From assembly GCA_014192065.1 (NCBI GenBank), contig BJHH01000001.1:310001-374000 (forward strand): a stretch of 64,000 nt of DNA. The letters run 5' to 3'. A program made the position numbers and the translations under genes. The notes beneath the pieces are model-generated. The model was not told the origin of the DNA. It worked only from the letters and a program-made list of their open reading frames with translations, and ran no database searches. This DNA is from Gemmatimonadota bacterium (lineage in GTDB: Bacteria > Gemmatimonadota > Gemmatimonadetes > Gemmatimonadales > Gemmatimonadaceae). Position 1 is the stretch's first letter; every line of letters starts with the position of its first letter. This document shows, piece after piece, positions 7,147 through 36,353 of the stretch.

Positions 7147-9096
7147 ATGGGTGAAATTCTCGGCCGGGTCGTTGCCACTGAGCGGCGCCCAAATACGCCG
7201 CATCAGTTCAACTTCTGGACGGCGCTCGACGCCCAGGTCGGCATTGGCACGATCGTGCGCGTCGATGGGAAGATCCCGGTCGCCGGGCGCCTGCCCAAGG
7301 TGTACGGTGTCGTCGTCGAGGGGCTGAGCTACTCCGATCTCGAAACGCCATTGCACGACGTGCTCGGTGCCGACGGCGAGCCGGGGCGGGCCGATGACGC
7401 GCCAACGCGCCGCACAGAAATCCGGCTCTACACGGCCGCGGTGCTCCGGCACATCCCGGACGATCCGCTCCAGCCCGTGCCGCTCGGCGCGGTGTATCTG
7501 GCATCGGAAGCCGACGTGCAGGTGGCGCTCCGAATGGACGCGTACCTGAAGCCCGGCGCGAGTACGGGAATCCCGATCGGGCTCTATCGCGCGGGCGCGA
7601 CGTCTTCGCCGATTTATCTCGACGCCGATTTTCTCCTCGGGCCTGAGGCGGCGCACCTCAACATCACTGGCGTGTCGGGTCTTGCGACCAAGACCAGTGC
7701 GGTCGAGTGGCTGCTGAGTTCGATCTTCGCCCATTTCCCCGCGCAGAAGGGAAGTGTCGCGGCGCTCTGCTTCAACGTGAAGGGCCCCGATCTCTGCTTC
7801 CTCGACCAGCCAGCGACGCGGCTCGATGCGTCGGATCTCGAACTGTACGCGAAACTCGGCGTACCCGCCGAGCCGTTCAAGCATGTCGAGTACTTCGCGC
7901 CGTACACAGCGCGGGGGTATGCGCTGAACACGTTGCGGTCGAACGAGTCGCTGTCGCACAACGTGCGCCCGCTCACTTGGGGGCTGCGCGAAGTGTTGCA
8001 GTACGCGGAGGTCCTGCTCAATAAGGACGACGTGGATGCGAAGGCCGATGCGCTGATCGATTTTATCCGCGAGCGCGTCGTTGACCAGGATTTTCACGAT
8101 GACCGCCTCGCGACGTCACACCGCGTGCAGTCATTCACGGACCTGGAACGCTGGTTCCGCGATGTGCTGCGCGCGATGGAAGAGAAGAACCAGGAAGTGT
8201 GGCGCACGCACCATGTGGCCACGATCCGCAAGGTCCGCAACCGACTGACGAACATCTCGACGCGCTGCCGTGGACTCGTGACCGACGATGGCACGGTGAG
8301 CGACCTGCCGTGGGGCGTATTTCAGGATCGCGGCGTGTATGTCGTGGACGTCGCGAACCTCGAAGAGGACGCGCAGGACCTGATTTTCGCGCGCGTGGTC
8401 ACCCAGCTGCGCGAGCGGCTCGAGAAGCGCACACTCGGCGTCGACCATGTCGTGGTGTTCGTGGACGAACTGAACAAATACGCACCAGCCGACGGGCCCG
8501 ACACCTATGTGCGCAAGATGCTGCTCGATGTCGCCGAGCGTGGGCGTTACCTCGGCCTCGTGCTCTTCGCGGCGCAACAGTTTCGTTCGCAGGTGCACCG
8601 TCGCGTCGTAGGCAACTCAGGCACGGCGCTCTTCGGGCGTATGGATTCGGATGAGTTGGCGACCCCAGGATATGCCACGCTCCCACCGACCACGCGGACG
8701 AAACTGTCGACGCTCGATAAGGGTGAACTGATGGTGCGGCATCCGCACTTCACGCAGCCGGTGTTCGTCCGCTTCCCGCGGCCGGCGGTGCTGTCGGGGC
8801 GAGAAGGCGTTGAGCGCTACCCGCAGGCCGACGAGCCGACGCTCGAAGGCGCCGTCGTGCGCGCGCTGCGGCCGCTCGACCGATCGATCACACTCGACTG
8901 GGTGAAGGAGACGATTGCGCTGGCGGATGAAGACGAGGTATTGCGTGCCAGGAACCGCACGTTGCAGGTGCGGCCGGATGACGTCCAAGCGTATTTCCGG
9001 AGCCAGTTGAAGCGCCGCGTGGCGACGGAGTCCGTTGGTGCGCGAACGCGACCGGCGATTCGCACCAGTCCCGGCGACGACCCCTACGCCTTCTAG
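7147..9096 (+). CDS. herA: HerA-like hexameric ATPase / DNA translocase
   Basis: 649-aa ATPase of the HerA/FtsK superfamily that in other organisms pumps DNA into NurA. The N-terminal 130 residues form a HAS-barrel-like region (GRVVATERRPNTP, GVVVEGLSY). The nucleotide-binding loop around 175-183 reads GVSGLATKT: K182 and T183 are kept, but the classical glycine before the lysine is replaced. Walker B is HVVVFVDELNKYAP (D440-E441), and the downstream FAAQQFRSQVHRRVVGNSGTALF fits the sensor/arginine-finger region of HerA. An internal basic helical stretch (TIRKVRNRLTNISTRC) lies between the two motifs. It follows nurA closely and ends 15 bases before mre11. Confidence 0.82.
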   Translation: MGEILGRVVATERRPNTPHQFNFWTALDAQVGIGTIVRVDGKIPVAGRLPKVYGVVVEGLSYSDLETPLHDVLGADGEPGRADDAPTRRTEIRLYTAAVLRHIPDDPLQPVPLGAVYLASEADVQVALRMDAYLKPGASTGIPIGLYRAGATSSPIYLDADFLLGPEAAHLNITGVSGLATKTSAVEWLLSSIFAHFPAQKGSVAALCFNVKGPDLCFLDQPATRLDASDLELYAKLGVPAEPFKHVEYFAPYTARGYALNTLRSNESLSHNVRPLTWGLREVLQYAEVLLNKDDVDAKADALIDFIRERVVDQDFHDDRLATSHRVQSFTDLERWFRDVLRAMEEKNQEVWRTHHVATIRKVRNRLTNISTRCRGLVTDDGTVSDLPWGVFQDRGVYVVDVANLEEDAQDLIFARVVTQLRERLEKRTLGVDHVVVFVDELNKYAPADGPDTYVRKMLLDVAERGRYLGLVLFAAQQFRSQVHRRVVGNSGTALFGRMDSDELATPGYATLPPTTRTKLSTLDKGELMVRHPHFTQPVFVRFPRPAVLSGREGVERYPQADEPTLEGAVVRALRPLDRSITLDWVKETIALADEDEVLRARNRTLQVRPDDVQAYFRSQLKRRVATESVGARTRPAIRTSPGDDPYAF

Positions 9097-10311: not shown

Positions 10312-12782
10312 AGATCCACCGCCTGAAGCTGCTGAACTTTCGGCAACACGCCGATTCCGATTTGTTGTTCGAAGGCGGGCTGACCGGCATTATCGGACCG
10401 AACGGTGTCGGCAAGTCGACGCTGCTCGAGGCGATCGCTTGGGCGCTCTACGGCGGCGACACTGCGCGCGGCGGCAAGGACTCGATTCGCTTCTCGCGCG
10501 CGCCCGCCCGGGCACAGGTGCGCGTCGAGCTCGAGTTCGAACTCGGCGGTCACCGCTACCGTGTCGTGCGCGGGCTCACCGTGGCGGAGCTCTATCTCGA
10601 CGGCGCCGAGCAGCCGATCGCGAACTCGGCGACGTCGGTAGGGGAGCTACTCCAGCGTCGCATCGGCATGACCCGCTCCGAGTTCTTCAACACCTACTTC
10701 ACCGGCCAGAAGGAACTGGCGGTGATGGCGTCGCTGAGCGCCACGGAGCGCGCGCAGTTCCTCTCTCGCGTGCTGGGATATGAGCGGTTGCGCGTGGCGC
10801 AAGAACTGGCCGACCAACGCCGCCGCGACCTGCGCAATGAGATCGCCGGCATGCGGAGTGGCATGCCCGATACCGACGCGCTCGCCGCGCAGGAAGCCGA
10901 GGCGCAGGGTGCAGTGGGTGGCGCCAGGTCGCGTCTGGCTGACGCCGAAATCGAGCGCTCGCGCGTGCAGGCGCAGCTCGACGCACTGGCGCCGAAATGG
11001 GCGGAGGCGCAGCGCCAGCGTGACGAGTTGCAGCTTCTCGAGGCCGACATCCGCGTGATCGAGATCGAGTTGTCCGCGCAACGCCGCAACACGGAACGCC
11101 TCGCGGTCGAGCTGCAGGCTGTTGACGAAGCCCGTGCGGCGCTGGCACCGGTGTCCGCCCAGCTCGTGCCGTTCGACGAACTGGGGAAAGAGTTGGCGCA
11201 GCTGCGCGACCTCGCAGCCCAGGACGGGCGCCGGCAGGCGCTGCTCGGGCAGGACCAGTCGATGGGGGCCGAGCTTGCGGCGATGCGGACGGAACGCGAG
11301 GCCATCGTCGGAGCGCCGGCGCTCGAGGAACAGGTCACGCTCGACCTCGAAGCGCGGCGCCGGCAACTGGAGTCCGCGCAGGGGAATCTTGAGTTGCGCC
11401 GTACCGAATGGGTGCGCGACCGTCAGGAAGCGGAAACCCGCCGCAATGCGCTTCGCGCTCAGTACGCCGAACTGCGCGACCAGCGTGACCGGCTGGTCGC
11501 ACGTGGCGAGCAGGGTGTCTGCCCGACCTGCCAGCGCCCGTTGCTCGACCACTACCGTCAGGTGCTCGACGTCCTCGACAATCAGATCGAGGCGATCAGC
11601 GCAGACGGGATGTACTTCAAGTCGCGGCTCGAACAGCTCGAGACGATGCCGGACCATGTGGCCGAGCTTGATGACGATCGGCGCCGGTTGCAGACAGACG
11701 TCGGGGCGCTCGAGCGCCGGCTGGCGCGCACGCAGATGAGCGTGCATCAGCTGGAGCACCTGGCGCGCGATGTTGCGGCCAAAGAGATGCGGCACGAAGC
11801 GCTCGCGAGGGATATTGCCGGAATCCCGGCCGGCTACGATCCAGATCGGCACCGGTCAGTCGAATCGGAGTTCGAGCGACTCGTCGCGCTCAACACGCAG
11901 GCGAATCGGCTCACGACCCAGGTGGAGCGCGAGCCGGTGCTGCGGCGCGAACAGGACCAAGTGGCGCGCAGCGAGGCCACACTCGCCGGCCGACGTGACG
12001 ACCTCCTGTCGAGACGCACCGCGCTGGCACTGTCGGAGGAAGAGTTCGGCCTACTCCGCCACCAGCACGCATCGGTGGCGACACAGCTTCAGGCCGCGGT
12101 GGGGGCGACCGTGACCGCGACGAACGAACTCGCGATGGCGCAGGCAGCGCTCGAGCGCGCGCTGGTGTCGCGCCGCGACCTTGATCGGGCCGCCGAACGC
12201 GTGGCTGTGCTCGAGCGAGACCGCCAGCTGCACGACGAACTGCACCGTGCCTATTCCGATCTACGCACGGACCTGAACTTTGCGATGCGCCCTGAACTCT
12301 CGGAGCTCGCCAGTGCGTTCCTCACCGAGCTGACCGACGCGCGCTATACGGAACTGGAACTCGACGACAAATACCGGATCGTCGTGCTCGAGGAAGGCGT
12401 GCCGAAGCCGGTGATCTCCGGGGGCGAAGAAGATCTCGCGAACCTTGTGCTCCGTCTGGCGATCTCGCAGATGATCGCCGAGCGCGCCGGCCAGGCGTTC
12501 TCGCTCCTCGTGCTCGACGAAGTGTTCGGTTCACTCGACGATGTTCGCCGCCAGAACGTGATCGCGCTGTTACGCGGGCTCCAGGACCGCTTCGAACAGG
12601 TCATCCTCATCACGCATATCGACGATGTACGCGACGGCCTCGACCAGGTGATGGAAGTCCGCGTGGACGAGCGCACGGGCGCGTCGGTGGTGCAGTACGG
12701 TGGAGTGGCGGGTCGCGAGTTGGCTGCCGCCGTGGCGGCGGGTCATCCCGGCGTGATTCGCGCCGCACAACCGTCCGAGTGA
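10308..12782 (+). CDS. sbcC: Rad50/SbcC-family SMC-like ATPase
   Basis: 824-aa SMC-type ATPase that clamps DNA ends together with Mre11. Walker A is GPNGVGKST (residues 30-38); the zinc hook is CPTC (C405-C408) in the middle of two long charged coiled-coil arms. Near the C terminus come the ABC signature ISGGEEDLANL and Walker B LLVLDEVFGSLDD, followed by the His-loop ILITHIDDV. At 824 residues it is shorter than E. coli SbcC (over 1,000), and closer to archaeal Rad50. The start is the GTG at 10308 overlapping the mre11 stop. The next gene starts inside its stop codon (TGATG). Confidence 0.94.
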   Translation: MKIHRLKLLNFRQHADSDLLFEGGLTGIIGPNGVGKSTLLEAIAWALYGGDTARGGKDSIRFSRAPARAQVRVELEFELGGHRYRVVRGLTVAELYLDGAEQPIANSATSVGELLQRRIGMTRSEFFNTYFTGQKELAVMASLSATERAQFLSRVLGYERLRVAQELADQRRRDLRNEIAGMRSGMPDTDALAAQEAEAQGAVGGARSRLADAEIERSRVQAQLDALAPKWAEAQRQRDELQLLEADIRVIEIELSAQRRNTERLAVELQAVDEARAALAPVSAQLVPFDELGKELAQLRDLAAQDGRRQALLGQDQSMGAELAAMRTEREAIVGAPALEEQVTLDLEARRRQLESAQGNLELRRTEWVRDRQEAETRRNALRAQYAELRDQRDRLVARGEQGVCPTCQRPLLDHYRQVLDVLDNQIEAISADGMYFKSRLEQLETMPDHVAELDDDRRRLQTDVGALERRLARTQMSVHQLEHLARDVAAKEMRHEALARDIAGIPAGYDPDRHRSVESEFERLVALNTQANRLTTQVEREPVLRREQDQVARSEATLAGRRDDLLSRRTALALSEEEFGLLRHQHASVATQLQAAVGATVTATNELAMAQAALERALVSRRDLDRAAERVAVLERDRQLHDELHRAYSDLRTDLNFAMRPELSELASAFLTELTDARYTELELDDKYRIVVLEEGVPKPVISGGEEDLANLVLRLAISQMIAERAGQAFSLLVLDEVFGSLDDVRRQNVIALLRGLQDRFEQVILITHIDDVRDGLDQVMEVRVDERTGASVVQYGGVAGRELAAAVAAGHPGVIRAAQPSE

Positions 12783-30887: not shown

Positions 30888-32402
30888 ATGAACGGTGTCC
30901 TCCGGTTCACGGTGGCGCTGGCGCCGCTGTTCGCTCTCTGGGCTCTGGCGGCGTCGGTAGTCGCGATTCGTGCAGCGCGAACCGATTTTGCGGTGGCGGC
31001 GCGGCGCGGATTGTTCGCCGCAACTGTCTGCGCGCTCGTCGCGGTCGCCGGCCTGACCGCCGGCCTGATCAGCTTCGACCTGTCGAGCCGTTTTGTGATG
31101 CAATCGTCGTCAGCGCTCATGCCGATCCGTTACGTGCCGGCCGCGTTCCTTGCCGCACCGGGCGGGGCACTGCTCGTGCTCGCTGCACTAGTCGGTGCGG
31201 CCGGCTTGGCGATGACCGGTGGACGTCGGCACGATGCGTTGACGAGTCGCTGGACCGTGGCTTGCGTTGCGGGCGCGATCATCGTGCCGCTCGCAATCGC
31301 CGCGTTGGGGGCGCCATTCGACTTGCCGATCGGTGCGCGCCAAGATGGTGCGGGACTCTCGCCCGATCTTCAGCGCGGTGCGACGACGCTGCACGCGCTC
31401 GCCTTGATGCTTGGGACGGCATGCGCCACTGTGTCGTTCGCGCTGACTGCCGCGGCCGTCGCATCGCGCACGGTGGACGAGCGCTGGAGCGCGCGCGTCC
31501 GTGTCTGGAATGCACTCGCGTGGACGGCGCTGTTCGTCGGTGCCATCGCAGGCGCGCGATGGTATGCGCTGAATCCGGTGCGTGGTGCGTGGCTCTCCGA
31601 TCCAGTCACGGCACTCTGGCTCTTGCCCACGGCGACGGGTGCGTGGCTGGTGCACCTCGACAGTGGTCGGGCGACCGCCGAGCGGGCCGTCACCCGCGTC
31701 CTCCTGATCGCTGCGACTTTCGTCGGCGCGACGCTGGCGCTCACATTCGGCGCTGGCGCATTCGTCACTGGCGCGGCCTCCGCGTTGACGCATCGCGCGG
31801 GGTGGTGGGTGGGCGCGACACCGGCGGCGGCCGTGCTGCTCTTGGTCGTGCTCCTCCGTCGTGGCGATGGTGCCCTCGCCTCGGCGTCGCGTATTGCAGA
31901 CGACGTGCGCTCACCAGTTGCTGCCTGGATTGCCCACGCCGGCTTCGTGCTCGTGGTCGCGGCAGCTGTTGGTGCCCGGTTCACCCGCGACCGGACGGTG
32001 GCCCTCGGTGATGCGGAGATTTTTCGCGCGCGCGACCCGTTCGGTCACCAGTGGTCGTTCGCGAGCCAAGGCATTTCGACCCTACAGCGCGAGAACTACG
32101 CCTCACTGACGGTGTCGCTGATGCCGAAACGCGACGACCAGCAGTTGGCGATGCTTTCGGCGGAGGCTCGCTCGTATACGCTGGCCAGCGGTGACGATGC
32201 CGGACCACCCGCCTTCATCACCGGCCACCTGGCCGGCCCGTTTCTCGAGACGCGACTGACCGTGGTGGAGCCGGAGGGGAAGCGACCCACGCTTCGCATC
32301 ACCTTTGTGCCGCTCGCGCCATGGCTCGCTGTTGGCGGTTGGCTGCTGGCCATCGGAACGGTGGCGCCGCTGCTTCGGCGGCGCCGGGAACCGACATCGT
32401 GA
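30888..32402 (+). CDS. Diverged CcmF-like (heme handling) membrane protein
   Basis: 504 aa with about ten hydrophobic segments. It follows the CcmF/CcsA architecture: SSALMPIRYVPAAFLAAPGGALLVLAAL matches the family region near its second helix, WLSDPVTALWLLPTATGAWLVHL aligns with the WWD domain and its following His, and VAAWIAHAGFVLVVA carries the conserved late His. The C-terminal periplasmic domain (ENYASLTVSL to APWLAVGGWLL) also fits. The WWD loop has lost its run of tryptophans (only S-D-P-V remains of W-D-P-V-E-N), so heme binding may be altered. Start ATG at 30888 is preferred; no other ccm genes are near. Confidence 0.6.
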   Translation: MNGVLRFTVALAPLFALWALAASVVAIRAARTDFAVAARRGLFAATVCALVAVAGLTAGLISFDLSSRFVMQSSSALMPIRYVPAAFLAAPGGALLVLAALVGAAGLAMTGGRRHDALTSRWTVACVAGAIIVPLAIAALGAPFDLPIGARQDGAGLSPDLQRGATTLHALALMLGTACATVSFALTAAAVASRTVDERWSARVRVWNALAWTALFVGAIAGARWYALNPVRGAWLSDPVTALWLLPTATGAWLVHLDSGRATAERAVTRVLLIAATFVGATLALTFGAGAFVTGAASALTHRAGWWVGATPAAAVLLLVVLLRRGDGALASASRIADDVRSPVAAWIAHAGFVLVVAAAVGARFTRDRTVALGDAEIFRARDPFGHQWSFASQGISTLQRENYASLTVSLMPKRDDQQLAMLSAEARSYTLASGDDAGPPAFITGHLAGPFLETRLTVVEPEGKRPTLRITFVPLAPWLAVGGWLLAIGTVAPLLRRRREPTS

Positions 32403-32566
32403 TCTCCCTCGCCGCGTTCGTCGCGCTCGGCGTCGCGGCGTGGGTCGTTGCGCCACTGATCTGGCCGGCGCCGGCGGGCTCGCGAGCAAGCTGTCCGACC
32501 TGCGGCCCGCGCCCCGAGGCCGACGCGCGGTTCTGCTCCAACTGCGGCGAGGAAAACGCGCGCTGA
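32399..32566 (+). CDS. Tiny membrane protein with zinc ribbon (55 aa)
   Basis: A GTG overlapping the stop of the CcmF-like gene (GTGA) opens a 55-codon frame: one hydrophobic helix (AAFVALGVAAWVVAPLIW) and then a four-cysteine zinc ribbon with CPTCG and CSNCG spaced by 12-13 residues. The coupling suggests it works with the CcmF-like protein. A cytoplasmic metal-binding or redox partner role is possible but not shown. Confidence 0.65.
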   Translation: MISLAAFVALGVAAWVVAPLIWPAPAGSRASCPTCGPRPEADARFCSNCGEENAR

Positions 32567-32579
32567 CGGTTCGCTGGGG

Positions 32580-33044
32580 CTACTGCAACGACTTTCTGAA
32601 GCAGTGCTTCTCGCCGACCTGGAGTTCGCTTCGGTCGATCTTTTCGTAGCGGGAGATCTTCTCGGGGTAGTTCGTGAGCGCGGTGTATTCGAATCCGCAG
32701 GCGAGGAACAACTCGTCTGAGAAGGACACCGAGAACACTTCGGCATAGCCGCGCTTCCGTGCGAGCTCTTCCGCCGCGTTGATCAGCGCTGTGCCGTGGC
32801 CGAGCCCCTGCTCGTCCTGCGACACCGCCAGTGAGATGATCTCTACCACTGACGGCGAATACTCGTCTAGCGCGACACAGCCGATGATCTCCCCGTCGGC
32901 GCCGCGAACCACACGATAGTCGGCGAGGTGAGCGTAGGCGAACTCGCCGGAGCGCTTGAGCGTGAGCCCCTGCTGCACGTAGCGGTTGTTGAGCGCGACG
33001 AGTCCGGGAATGTCCGGCTCATTGGCAAGTTGCACACGACTCAT
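32580..33044 (-). CDS. GNAT acetyltransferase, ArgA/N-acetylglutamate-synthase-like
   Basis: 154 aa with a clear GNAT fold: acetyl-CoA loop VSQDEQGLGHGTALI (about residues 73-87), VALDEYSPSVVEIISLAV strand pair and the C-terminal FLACGFEYTALTNYPEKI, a pattern common to short N-acetylglutamate synthase-like proteins (ArgA C-terminal domain type). A role in arginine synthesis is plausible from this subgroup but no arg genes are nearby. AAGGTG lies 7 bases before the ATG. It borders the A+T-rich stretch that follows. Confidence 0.8.
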   Translation of the reverse strand: MSRVQLANEPDIPGLVALNNRYVQQGLTLKRSGEFAYAHLADYRVVRGADGEIIGCVALDEYSPSVVEIISLAVSQDEQGLGHGTALINAAEELARKRGYAEVFSVSFSDELFLACGFEYTALTNYPEKISRYEKIDRSELQVGEKHCFRKSLQ

Positions 33045-34142
33045 TGTGACACCTTCTCGAGACGCCTCAGCGCCGCGCGAATAGGAAAGTTCGTTGCCGC
33101 TGAAAAACTGCGTGTTTCTAACCCATTAATATTGAATATTGCGACAGCTGCAACACCCTATTTCACATGTCACAGTGAAGGGTTTCGTGATTCACACACG
33201 AAAGGTGCTCATACAATCAAGAAACTTAGGAATGGGAAAAGCGGAGCGAACGAGTGGGATACATGCTGCATGCACAGCAAGGGTTGCTAAGAGCAGGCTC
33301 GCCACGTGTTAGAAGAAACAGTTTATGAGCGACACTTCCAAGATTGCTGACTTACTACAGATAGTTCAGAAAGGGCAACATCACTACACCATAAGAAAGA
33401 AGCACGAGATGTTCAATTTACCGCGCACGTACTTTTCGGATTCTTAACAAAGCATTGTGGGCATAGCGCGCAATCAGCCCTCTATCAATCTGTCCAACGA
33501 ATAGAAAGTCTAAAGGTGAAGACCAGAACACTTCATCATCTGTTTGAATCGCCGCGCGGTATAGATGCACTGATTGCAAAGATTAACAGCAACACCCGCA
33601 TTCGCGAGGATACGAAGCAGGAGAAGACTGGCTCACAAGGTAAAAGTAGAGATTGTCGCCGAACGTGGAGCAATCGGGCAGAGAAGGCGCATATATCCAG
33701 AAGCCACGTTATTGTGTACATGGGGCATAAGGGAAGGCAACAAACCGACCTGTATCAAACACGCGCTATCACACGCGCCGAACTAGATGAAGATTGTAAG
33801 AAACTACAAACATTTATTGATAACGAACGCGCTGCCACTCAACCGAAACTATTATCACATTACGCACTAGCGACATCACGAGAGGTTCTCAGATGGTTAG
33901 ATGTAGAAACACAAAGCCCCGATGGGGCCGCGTGGCGATTCGCGGCACCCGGTGGACGCTGGACCTCAGTACCGGCTTCATCATCGTGGAGCGGTAACCT
34001 CGTCCAACGGTAAACGCGTCGAACGGTAGCCGCAGCCCGTGGTAACTACCGGTCTGGACGCGATGGGTTTCGCTTCGGGAAGAGACGTCAACCCGATAGA
34101 TTTCGGGTGTTCGACTCAATGTTCTTTTTCTCGGCTTCTCTA
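33045..34142. other. A+T-rich, gene-poor stretch with decayed reading frames
   Basis: About 1.1 kb with base composition unlike its surroundings; lines between 33100 and 33910 look near 40-45 percent G+C against roughly 65 elsewhere. Codon use, with many AAA, TTA and ATA, also differs. It holds a 40-codon frame (33325-33447), then an overlapping frame open from 33351 to 34013, which looks like one gene broken by a shift. The change back to high G+C occurs at about 33910 near a small GCCCC/GGGGC hairpin (33916-33928). No tRNA or clear direct repeat flanks it. Probably horizontally acquired and decaying. Confidence 0.65.
33351..34013 (+). pseudogene. Remnant reading frame in the A+T-rich stretch, unrecognised
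   Basis: The frame is open from 33351, but its first ATG is at 33516, giving 165 codons. The product is basic and shows no secure family. A segment VIVYMGHKGRQQTDLYQTRAI followed by AELDEDCKKLQTFID has the flavour of the C-terminal end of tyrosine recombinases, where a glycine-histidine box precedes the catalytic Tyr, but the other catalytic residues are not seen. An upstream short frame (33325-33447, MSDTSKIADLLQ...) overlaps out of phase and may be its displaced N terminus. The last 30 codons run into G+C-rich DNA. Confidence 0.35.
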
Positions 34143-35294
34143 ATGAAAATGTTTGTGCTTGGCGCCGGACTTCAGGGCGCTGCGTGTGCATACGATCTGC
34201 TCCAGCAGAAGTCCGTTACGGCCGTCGTGCTTGCGGATCGCGACTTCTCCAAGGCGCCGCCATTCCTCGACGCGTGCCGCGAGGATCCGCGGCTTAAGCT
34301 GCTCACGCTCGACGCGACCGACGTCAGTGCCGTGCGGCGGGCACTGGATGGCTGTGCGGCTGTCATGTGCGCTCTGCCGTACTACTTCAATCTCGAGATG
34401 GCGCGGCTCGCGGTCGATGCGGGTGCGCATTTCTGTGATCTCGGCGGAAACACCGAGATTGTGTCGAAACAGAAGGCGCTCGACGCCGATGCCCGGGCGA
34501 AGGGTGTCACCGTCGTCCCTGACTGTGGACTCGCCCCGGGCATGGTCAATATTCTCGCCCAGCTTGGCATTTCGAAGTGCGACTCGACCGACAGTGTGCG
34601 CATCTTCGTCGGTGGACTTCCGCAGCAGCCTGAGGGGGCGCTCAAGTATCAGGTGGTCTATTCGCTGGAAGGCGTGCTCGATTACTACACGACGCTTTCG
34701 TGGGTGGTGCGGAACGGCAAGCGCATGAATGTCGAGGCGCTGTCCGAGGTGGAGCTGATCACATTCGATGCTCCGGTCGGCACGCTTGAGGCTTTCCACA
34801 CCGCCGGCGGTCTTTCCACCATGGCGGTTCGCTACGAAGGCAAGATTCCTACGATGGAGTACAAGACCCTTCGCTATCCCGGCCACGCGCAGCTCATGGC
34901 CGCAATCCGCGAACTTGGTTTTCTCGATTCGGCGGCGGTGGACGTCAAGGGCCAGCAGGTGGCGCCGCGCGATCTCGCGATCGCGGTAATGAAGCCGCGC
35001 CTCACCAAACCCGATGGGAAAGACCTCGTGGCCCTGCGCGTCGTCGTCGAAGGAGTGAAAGGTGGAAAGCCCGTGAAGCACACCTGGGAACTCGTGGATC
35101 GGTTCGACGCGGAGCGGCACATCAGCGCAATGGAACGCACGACGGGATACTCGCTTGCAATCACCGGACTGATGCAGGCCGCGGGCGCCATATCGGAAAA
35201 AGGCGTACGCACTCCCGACGAGGCCGTGCCGGGCGACGCATATGTGGCAGAGCTCGGCAAGCGAGACATCAAGATCGCGTATCGGTCGGCGTAG
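34143..35294 (+). CDS. Saccharopine dehydrogenase-family oxidoreductase
   Basis: 383 aa with an N-terminal Rossmann fold: VLGAGLQGAACAYDLL binds NAD(P), ADRDFSKAPPFLD is the second strand, and CALPYYFNLEMARLAVDAGAHFCDLGG is a strong match to the saccharopine-dehydrogenase-like/LYS9 group. PDCGLAPGMVNILA marks the switch to the catalytic domain. In bacteria this family includes lysine-degradation and carboxynorspermidine-type enzymes; substrate cannot be assigned. ATG at 34143 starts directly on the Rossmann strand. It lies just past the A+T-rich stretch and seems monocistronic. Confidence 0.86.
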   Translation: MKMFVLGAGLQGAACAYDLLQQKSVTAVVLADRDFSKAPPFLDACREDPRLKLLTLDATDVSAVRRALDGCAAVMCALPYYFNLEMARLAVDAGAHFCDLGGNTEIVSKQKALDADARAKGVTVVPDCGLAPGMVNILAQLGISKCDSTDSVRIFVGGLPQQPEGALKYQVVYSLEGVLDYYTTLSWVVRNGKRMNVEALSEVELITFDAPVGTLEAFHTAGGLSTMAVRYEGKIPTMEYKTLRYPGHAQLMAAIRELGFLDSAAVDVKGQQVAPRDLAIAVMKPRLTKPDGKDLVALRVVVEGVKGGKPVKHTWELVDRFDAERHISAMERTTGYSLAITGLMQAAGAISEKGVRTPDEAVPGDAYVAELGKRDIKIAYRSA

Positions 35295-35417
35295 CGCATC
35301 GTAGCTCTGTGGAAGCTTGACGTCGCTGGGCGGTGGCACCACGCAGCTTGGCGTATCGATCGGCTATTGGCCCGATTCGCACGAGGTGTCGCGCCATACT
35401 GGCACAACCGGTCGTCA

Positions 35418-36353
35418 TCAGGTCCCGCGCTGCCCGTCGCGCGCGCGGCGATAAAATGCTGCTGCCTCGGTCGGGCGACTCATGCGATCGAGCACCATGC
35501 CGACACCCTTGAACGCGCGCCAGTTATCGGGCTCAAGCTCGGCGGCGCGGTGGTATGCCTCGAGCGCTTCGCCAAGCCGATCCAGCTTGCTCAAGGCCTC
35601 GCCGAGGTAGAAGTGCCCCTGGCCAGAGAGCGGGTCGTGCTCTACTGCGCCGCTGAGTGGTTCGACGGCCTCGCGCCATTTGGCGCGCCGGCAGGCCAGA
35701 ATGCCCTGCAGTAGCAGCACGTGGGGATCATTCGGCTTTGCCTTCTGCGCCTGCTGGAGCTCGCGCTCGGCTTCTTCGTACCGCAGCCGTCCGCTCAGGA
35801 TCGTCGCCCGGGCGCAACGGAGCATCACTGCGCTGGCGCCGGCGTCGATGGCCCGCTGCAGGGCACCCAGCGCGCCCTCGATGTTGCCGCGGTTGGCGAG
35901 CGCGTTCGAAAACGCCATCGCCGCCCGTTCGTTCCGAGGGTGCGCGTCGTGAATGCTTCGGAGTTCGTCGATCGCCGGAAGTGGCGTTGGTGGTGTTGGG
36001 TTGCGCGGGGCGACGACGCGCGGAACGGCTGGTACCGGCGGCGGCAGAGCCGCTCCGGACGAGATGGCCGGTGCGCGGCGGATCTCAGGACTTGGCGCCG
36101 AGACGGCGGATTCCGCGGTCACGGGCGTTGCCACGAATGTTGCACCAGCGCGCGATTCTGGGATTTCATCCGTATCGAACGACCATTCGCCGCAGACTGG
36201 TGGTTCACGAACCGCGACCGCACCCTCTAGCCCGTCGAGGGGACCTGCGTCACGCAGCTCAGAAGCTGCCGCGTCCAGTCCACCCAGGGTGAGCTGGTCG
36301 GAATTGGGCGGCATAAGGCCGCCAATTGGCGTTCGGTCTTGCGGAGAGACCAT
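35418..36353 (-). CDS. Tetratricopeptide-repeat protein with proline-rich N terminus
   Basis: 311 aa. Residues 1-130 are low complexity, Ala/Pro/Ser-rich (GAALPPPVPAVPRV) and probably disordered. From about 135 come at least four TPR units: AFSNALANRGNIEGALGALQ, RYEEAERELQQAQKAKPNDP, KWREAVEPLSGAVEHDPLSG and RLGEALEAYHRAAELEPDN. No signal peptide. It diverges from uvrA with 129 bases between starts. Partner and role unknown. Confidence 0.8.
   Translation of the reverse strand: MVSPQDRTPIGGLMPPNSDQLTLGGLDAAASELRDAGPLDGLEGAVAVREPPVCGEWSFDTDEIPESRAGATFVATPVTAESAVSAPSPEIRRAPAISSGAALPPPVPAVPRVVAPRNPTPPTPLPAIDELRSIHDAHPRNERAAMAFSNALANRGNIEGALGALQRAIDAGASAVMLRCARATILSGRLRYEEAERELQQAQKAKPNDPHVLLLQGILACRRAKWREAVEPLSGAVEHDPLSGQGHFYLGEALSKLDRLGEALEAYHRAAELEPDNWRAFKGVGMVLDRMSRPTEAAAFYRRARDGQRGT

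Follow-up and report, generated by a model that had tools for sequence, protein, structure and literature searches.

A probable integrase relic at the seam of a chromosomal rearrangement in a Gemmatimonadota bacterium

Why does a short A+T-rich patch with a broken gene stand in the chromosome of a Gemmatimonadota bacterium, and what happened to the genes on either side of it? Within the 64,000-nt stretch of DNA analysed here (the window), positions 33101-33924 have a G+C content of 45.5%, versus 64.9% for the window as a whole. This is the lowest value among all 824-bp stretches of the window (sampled every 50 bp), and both the drop and the recovery at the borders are abrupt, as an earlier note had claimed when it placed a sudden change of composition between about 33100 and 33910. 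The same note had drawn the limits of the feature at 33045-34142; the patch itself stands, but these edges do not, since 33041-33100 is the end of a host ABC-transporter gene and the DNA from 33925 onward is host DNA that belongs to another locus in relatives (Table 1). It also missed a second role of the patch, which is that of the seam of a rearrangement.

Table 1. Features of the locus in window coordinates; names and functions are predictions from similarity.
Feature	Coordinates	Strand	Evidence
GNAT acetyltransferase, host gene, left neighbour	32580..33044	-	Pfam PF00583, E 9e-13
Last 19 codons and stop of ABC-transporter gene (ABC_tran_2 in intact relative)	33041..33100	-	C-terminus AAT..P(I/V)R.ALRRLE.V shared with relatives
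Probable relic of integrative element: left end and decayed tyrosine-recombinase gene	33101..33924	+	G+C 0.455; tblastn to intact integrases; profile matches
Integrase N-terminal piece, about residues 2-16, lacking the start codon; followed by a gap of about residues 17-114	33201..33239	+	E 0.025, weak alone; order and spacing right
Integrase residues 115-177, one in-frame stop	33247..33435	+	tblastn to intact integrases
Integrase residues 179-239 after frameshift; residues about 240-314 missing after	33438..33620	+	alignment of family and tblastn
Integrase C-terminal catalytic part (RDCRR..GH..Y), own stop codon absent	33621..33875	+	65% identical to P0001, E 7e-33
Conserved 40-bp 3' flank of integrase gene, ending in 5' arm of terminator-like hairpin, 3' arm missing	33885..33924	+	similarity to flanks of intact integrases
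Last ~24 codons of gene standing just upstream of SDH gene in relatives	33925..33997	+	encodes GRVAIRGTRWTLDLSTGFIIVER then stop
Saccharopine dehydrogenase (SDH) gene, relocated	34143..35294	+	Pfam PF16653, E 1e-41
TPR-like host gene (name by eye), ancestral order resumes	35418..36353	-	homology from 35424

Very probably, the patch is what remains of an integrase gene, now decayed, from a small mobile element once inserted in the chromosome. Intact relatives of about 400 aa occur within the same genus of the phylum Gemmatimonadota, among them P0001, a 401-aa protein of genome G008. Joined together, the pieces of the relic match the intact integrases with E 5e-34, and a family-profile search of the genome recovered three of them separately (E 4.7e-27, 9.7e-15 and 2.4e-11). 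The two overlapping frames that the earlier note had proposed to join across a shift do follow one another in P0001, as residues 115-177 and then, in the next frame, 179-239. Its comparison of the segment GHKG..LYQ with the end of a tyrosine recombinase proved equally sound: the piece at 33621-33875 corresponds to P0001 residues about 315-400. At the other end, residues 5-16 of P0001 match positions 33204-33239. In all, the start codon, the stop codon and two internal blocks of the gene are gone, and a frameshift and an in-frame stop (TAG) interrupt what is left. The catalytic residues Arg254 and Lys278 (P0001 numbering) fall within the second deleted block; since both are gone, the integrase of the window is evidently dead, the copy having neither the intact gene nor the full set of catalytic residues of an active tyrosine recombinase, and the patch appears to be without present function beyond that of a scar.

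The assignment of the relic depends on what its intact relatives are. A tyrosine-recombinase catalytic domain is recognisable in their sequences: in an alignment of ten full-length members, all ten match a PHROG integrase family, and seven match Pfam Phage_integrase (PF00589) at E<=0.01, below the Pfam curated cut-off among the rows shown. The AlphaFold model of P0001 (mean pLDDT 78.8, pTM only 0.47) is predicted to adopt the tyrosine-recombinase fold. Its best Foldseek matches are tyrosine recombinases, including lambda integrase (best E only 1e-3, probability 1.00), and structural comparison with VIA gave Z scores of 12-13 with lambda Int, Tn1549 Int and Xer. By eye, R254, K278, R327, H350 and Y359 are invariant in all ten rows, so that five of the six catalytic positions are preserved, and position 324, where HxxR usually has its His, is occupied by Arg in every row; this departure from the textbook active site counts against our reading. 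A search of PDB sequences with the family profile gave no meaningful match, no relatives were found in the phage, plasmid and viral-contig collections searched, and among the papers listed by our literature search none concerned this element family, although we do not claim that it is absent from print. The integrase genes of four A+T-rich relatives, intact or nearly so, have a G+C content of 40-46%, as against 53-64% in six others. The relic falls with the former group, which explains its composition. Assemblies often break inside or just after the integrases of this family, as at contig ends in G005 (C20/C22), G014 (C20) and G008 (C19 and C21).

Intact members lie in what can be classed, from their ends and empty sites, as site-specific integrative elements, and this supports the suggestion of the earlier note that the patch is the remnant of an integrated element. 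The clearest case, in G015 (L059, 5904-9931), spans 4,028 bp between two copies of the 19-bp direct repeat TCATTCCCAGAAAGTGTCG; in G013, which agrees with it at 96-97% identity along both flanks, the site is unoccupied and the repeat occurs once (one mismatch). Besides its integrase, this element encodes a small serine resolvase and one or more further proteins. A second element, in G005, has genes for a cytosine methyltransferase and an HNH nuclease and is bounded by the 12-bp direct repeat TATTCTTTCATA; it spans two contigs, both ending in the integrase gene, and we infer its continuity. Among 18 genomes of the genus, the G005-type site holds an integrase in four and is empty in 12, with no match in two. 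Judged by eye, the target in both demonstrated cases overlaps a host gene at its start codon. No virion genes were noticed among those ORFs of the two elements that were tested. Beside the integrase and the serine resolvase, three elements have in common a third protein family of 230-295 aa (L068:6166-6966, L025:8314-9198 and L059:7791-8480; 33-37% identity to the first row), for which no Pfam match reached the cut-off and no relatives were found in plasmids and viral contigs. A role as replication protein was considered for it, but its AlphaFold model is poor (pLDDT 41.6). The genome of the window itself holds an intact family integrase on contig C5 (L024, 1-3970), in an island between ettA-like and rlmN-like genes (names by eye). 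This island includes two hairpins and two genes (TonB/zinc ribbon and DUF805) with a common 103-bp start region, and TTACGTGAYATATTACGT recurs close to each of its ends.

The similarity of the relic to these genes extends past the coding region. Over 38-40 bp, its 3' flank is 89-90% identical to the flanks of intact integrases in G007 and on contig C5 of the same genome, where the gene encodes 411 aa, and the flank is also present in G008 and G035. At these four places the sequence continues into the whole of a hairpin, AAAGCCCCGA..TCGGGGCTTT, terminator-like in appearance; in the window it stops halfway through the hairpin. By eye, the hairpin was recognised at six of the 12 loci compared, and none was seen at the other six.

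The left border is that of a lost gene. The earlier note had named the presence of the stretch at this site in all relatives as the observation that would speak against a foreign origin; all 17 other genomes of the genus instead carry the ABC-transporter gene there, within about 100 bp of the GNAT gene (the copy in G005 matches Pfam PF16949 with E 1e-106). Base-by-base identity with relatives ends at 33100. The rest of the transporter gene, present in 17 of the 18 genomes of the genus, has no match elsewhere in the window's own genome, which is 97.75% complete. This junction is probably the true end of the element, because the integrase coding part begins about 97 bp from it, a spacing near that of the G015 element (78 bp between core and start codon). 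On the other side the end is missing, so that the window copy does not have two ends with a repeat, and no direct repeat of at least 7 bp flanks the relic (no 7-mer is shared between 33060-33139 and 33901-34180). Integration at this exact site is for these reasons not demonstrable from the window alone. An Rfam scan of 32000-36000 returned nothing.

To the right of the relic stands DNA from a different place. The peptide GRVAIRGTRWTLDLSTGFIIVER matches the region upstream of SDH in seven of 12 relatives (best E 4e-10; the other five are without such a match), and a match at the DNA level has E 2e-5. SDH and GNAT lie on different contigs in 16 of the 17 other genomes of the genus, and the 17th (G017) is without an SDH match. 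In the genome of the window, the old neighbourhood of SDH is on contig C2, where the PBP and peptidase M1 genes are about 58 bp apart and SDH is absent. Beyond the relocated gene the ancestral order resumes: around GNAT in five relatives, the TPR-like gene is found beyond the transporter region in all five, and uvrA as well in four, the stretch from the fifth beginning at a contig edge. SDH and the tail of its old neighbour thus occupy the place of the transporter gene. Since the transporter gene is lost on the left, and the right side is formed by 1.4 kb of DNA from a locus that stands elsewhere in relatives and is missing there in this genome, the relic evidently marks the seam of a rearrangement, of which the integrase may have been the cause.

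Two side observations concern the same genes. Several genes place G008 as the nearest relative, and there the two genes that the seam affects were decaying as well: the transporter gene is truncated, with only residues 228-506 matching (L106, about 11650-12490), and SDH is without about 113 bp relative to the SDH of the window (L128, about 8050-8992). In the window, 2.3 copies of a 16-bp tandem repeat, CGGTAAACGCGTCCAA, occupy 33992-34028, at and just after the stop codon of the gene tail and before SDH.

The best explanation, to which we assign a probability of about 0.87, would run as follows. With the help of its tyrosine recombinase, a small A+T-rich element, the integrase gene of which lay just inside the left end and read inward, would have entered the chromosome close to the 3' end of the ABC-transporter gene; from the left end and the family, we infer that the enzyme was the element's own. 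The element would later have broken just past the integrase gene, within the terminator-like hairpin, with loss of the remainder and of the right end, while deletions, a frameshift and a stop codon ruined the integrase gene. The end left by the break is now joined to the 1.4-kb piece of another host locus, consisting of one gene's tail and SDH, after a rearrangement that may have used the element as its breakpoint; the order of these steps is the likely one. Against this course stands the position of the target, which falls within a gene at its 3' end, versus the start-codon-overlapping targets of the two demonstrated cases (by eye).

A different history would have the element carry SDH: having sat between SDH and its upstream gene, it would have left imprecisely together with SDH and reinserted in the transporter gene. 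Imprecise exit with a neighbouring gene is known from specialised transduction by phage lambda. Such carriage agrees with the direct contact between the relic and the 3' tail of the gene that precedes SDH in relatives, as well as with the disappearance of both SDH and that gene from contig C2, and the SDH of the window groups next to that of G008 in a tree (support 0.425 only), which is compatible with a native gene. However, the absence of a flanking repeat and of the right end weighs against it, a plain deletion or translocation would give the same seam, and the loss of the transporter remainder would require a further deletion; we regard carriage as rather unlikely. It is improbable, too, that the element moved a host gene within one chromosome, leaving relic and relocated SDH fused at one seam and both old sites emptied.

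An artefact of assembly, in which the contig would wrongly join three places through repeated element sequence, is very unlikely. Intact family integrases are often found at contig ends, and assemblies do break there, but the relic is a single, diverged copy in its genome, SDH is absent from its ancestral place and the transporter gene from the whole genome, and the ancestral order resumes on both sides. We consider it highly improbable that the relic belonged to an integron-like cassette array with the hairpin as an attC-like site. The hairpin did at first resemble attC, and on contig C5 two copies bracket two genes beside an intact integrase; elsewhere, however, a lone terminator-like hairpin follows one integrase gene, the complete G015 element has direct-repeat ends and no tandem array, and three integrases tested gave no NCBIfam integron-integrase match. 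A native A+T-rich host gene in decay is hardly credible, since the family, although present in several Gemmatimonadota genera (5 of 35), is patchy (14 of 179 genomes of the taxonomic family at E 1e-8; 27 of 395 phylum genomes, drawn evenly from a larger group, at E 1e-10) and found at differing sites, and the empty sites refute this reading at the family level.

The preferred reading, insertion of an element followed by breakage, decay and joining to the SDH piece, resolves an unexplained patch into a succession of events at a single locus: a gene lost, a gene moved and an element dead. It also leads to a family of small integrative elements with two recombinases in Gemmatimonadota, whose empty sites reveal their exact ends and targets. 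Should SDH indeed have been moved by the element, this would be a case of integrase-driven gene relocation inside one chromosome.

Among known systems, the intact integrases most resemble the arm-binding-domain tyrosine recombinases of the lambda Int type, which one account distinguishes from a simple group (PMC8138268). They are alike in fold, in the order Arg..Lys..xxxR..GH..Tyr, in a β-rich N-terminal region before the core-binding helices and in their location at the end of integrated elements. Their sequence similarity to the named families is very low, though, and by eye an Arg takes the place of the His of HxxR; for archaea, a second account reports KxxR and YxxR variants (PMC8371274). 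The elements themselves resemble small integrative elements and genomic islands with tyrosine integrases in their direct-repeat ends, their empty sites, the integrase gene just inside one end, and cargo exemplified by genes for a cytosine methyltransferase and an HNH nuclease. They differ in that the two demonstrated targets overlap the start codon of a protein gene, rather than lying in tRNA genes, and in the small serine resolvase gene towards the other end. Integrase relics remain after the loss of islands, with a decayed integrase beside a truncated host gene, as in the window; here, however, the other side consists of DNA of a different host locus. The relic is ordinary in kind; its modest interest lies in marking a seam and in pointing to a family of elements that has been little described.
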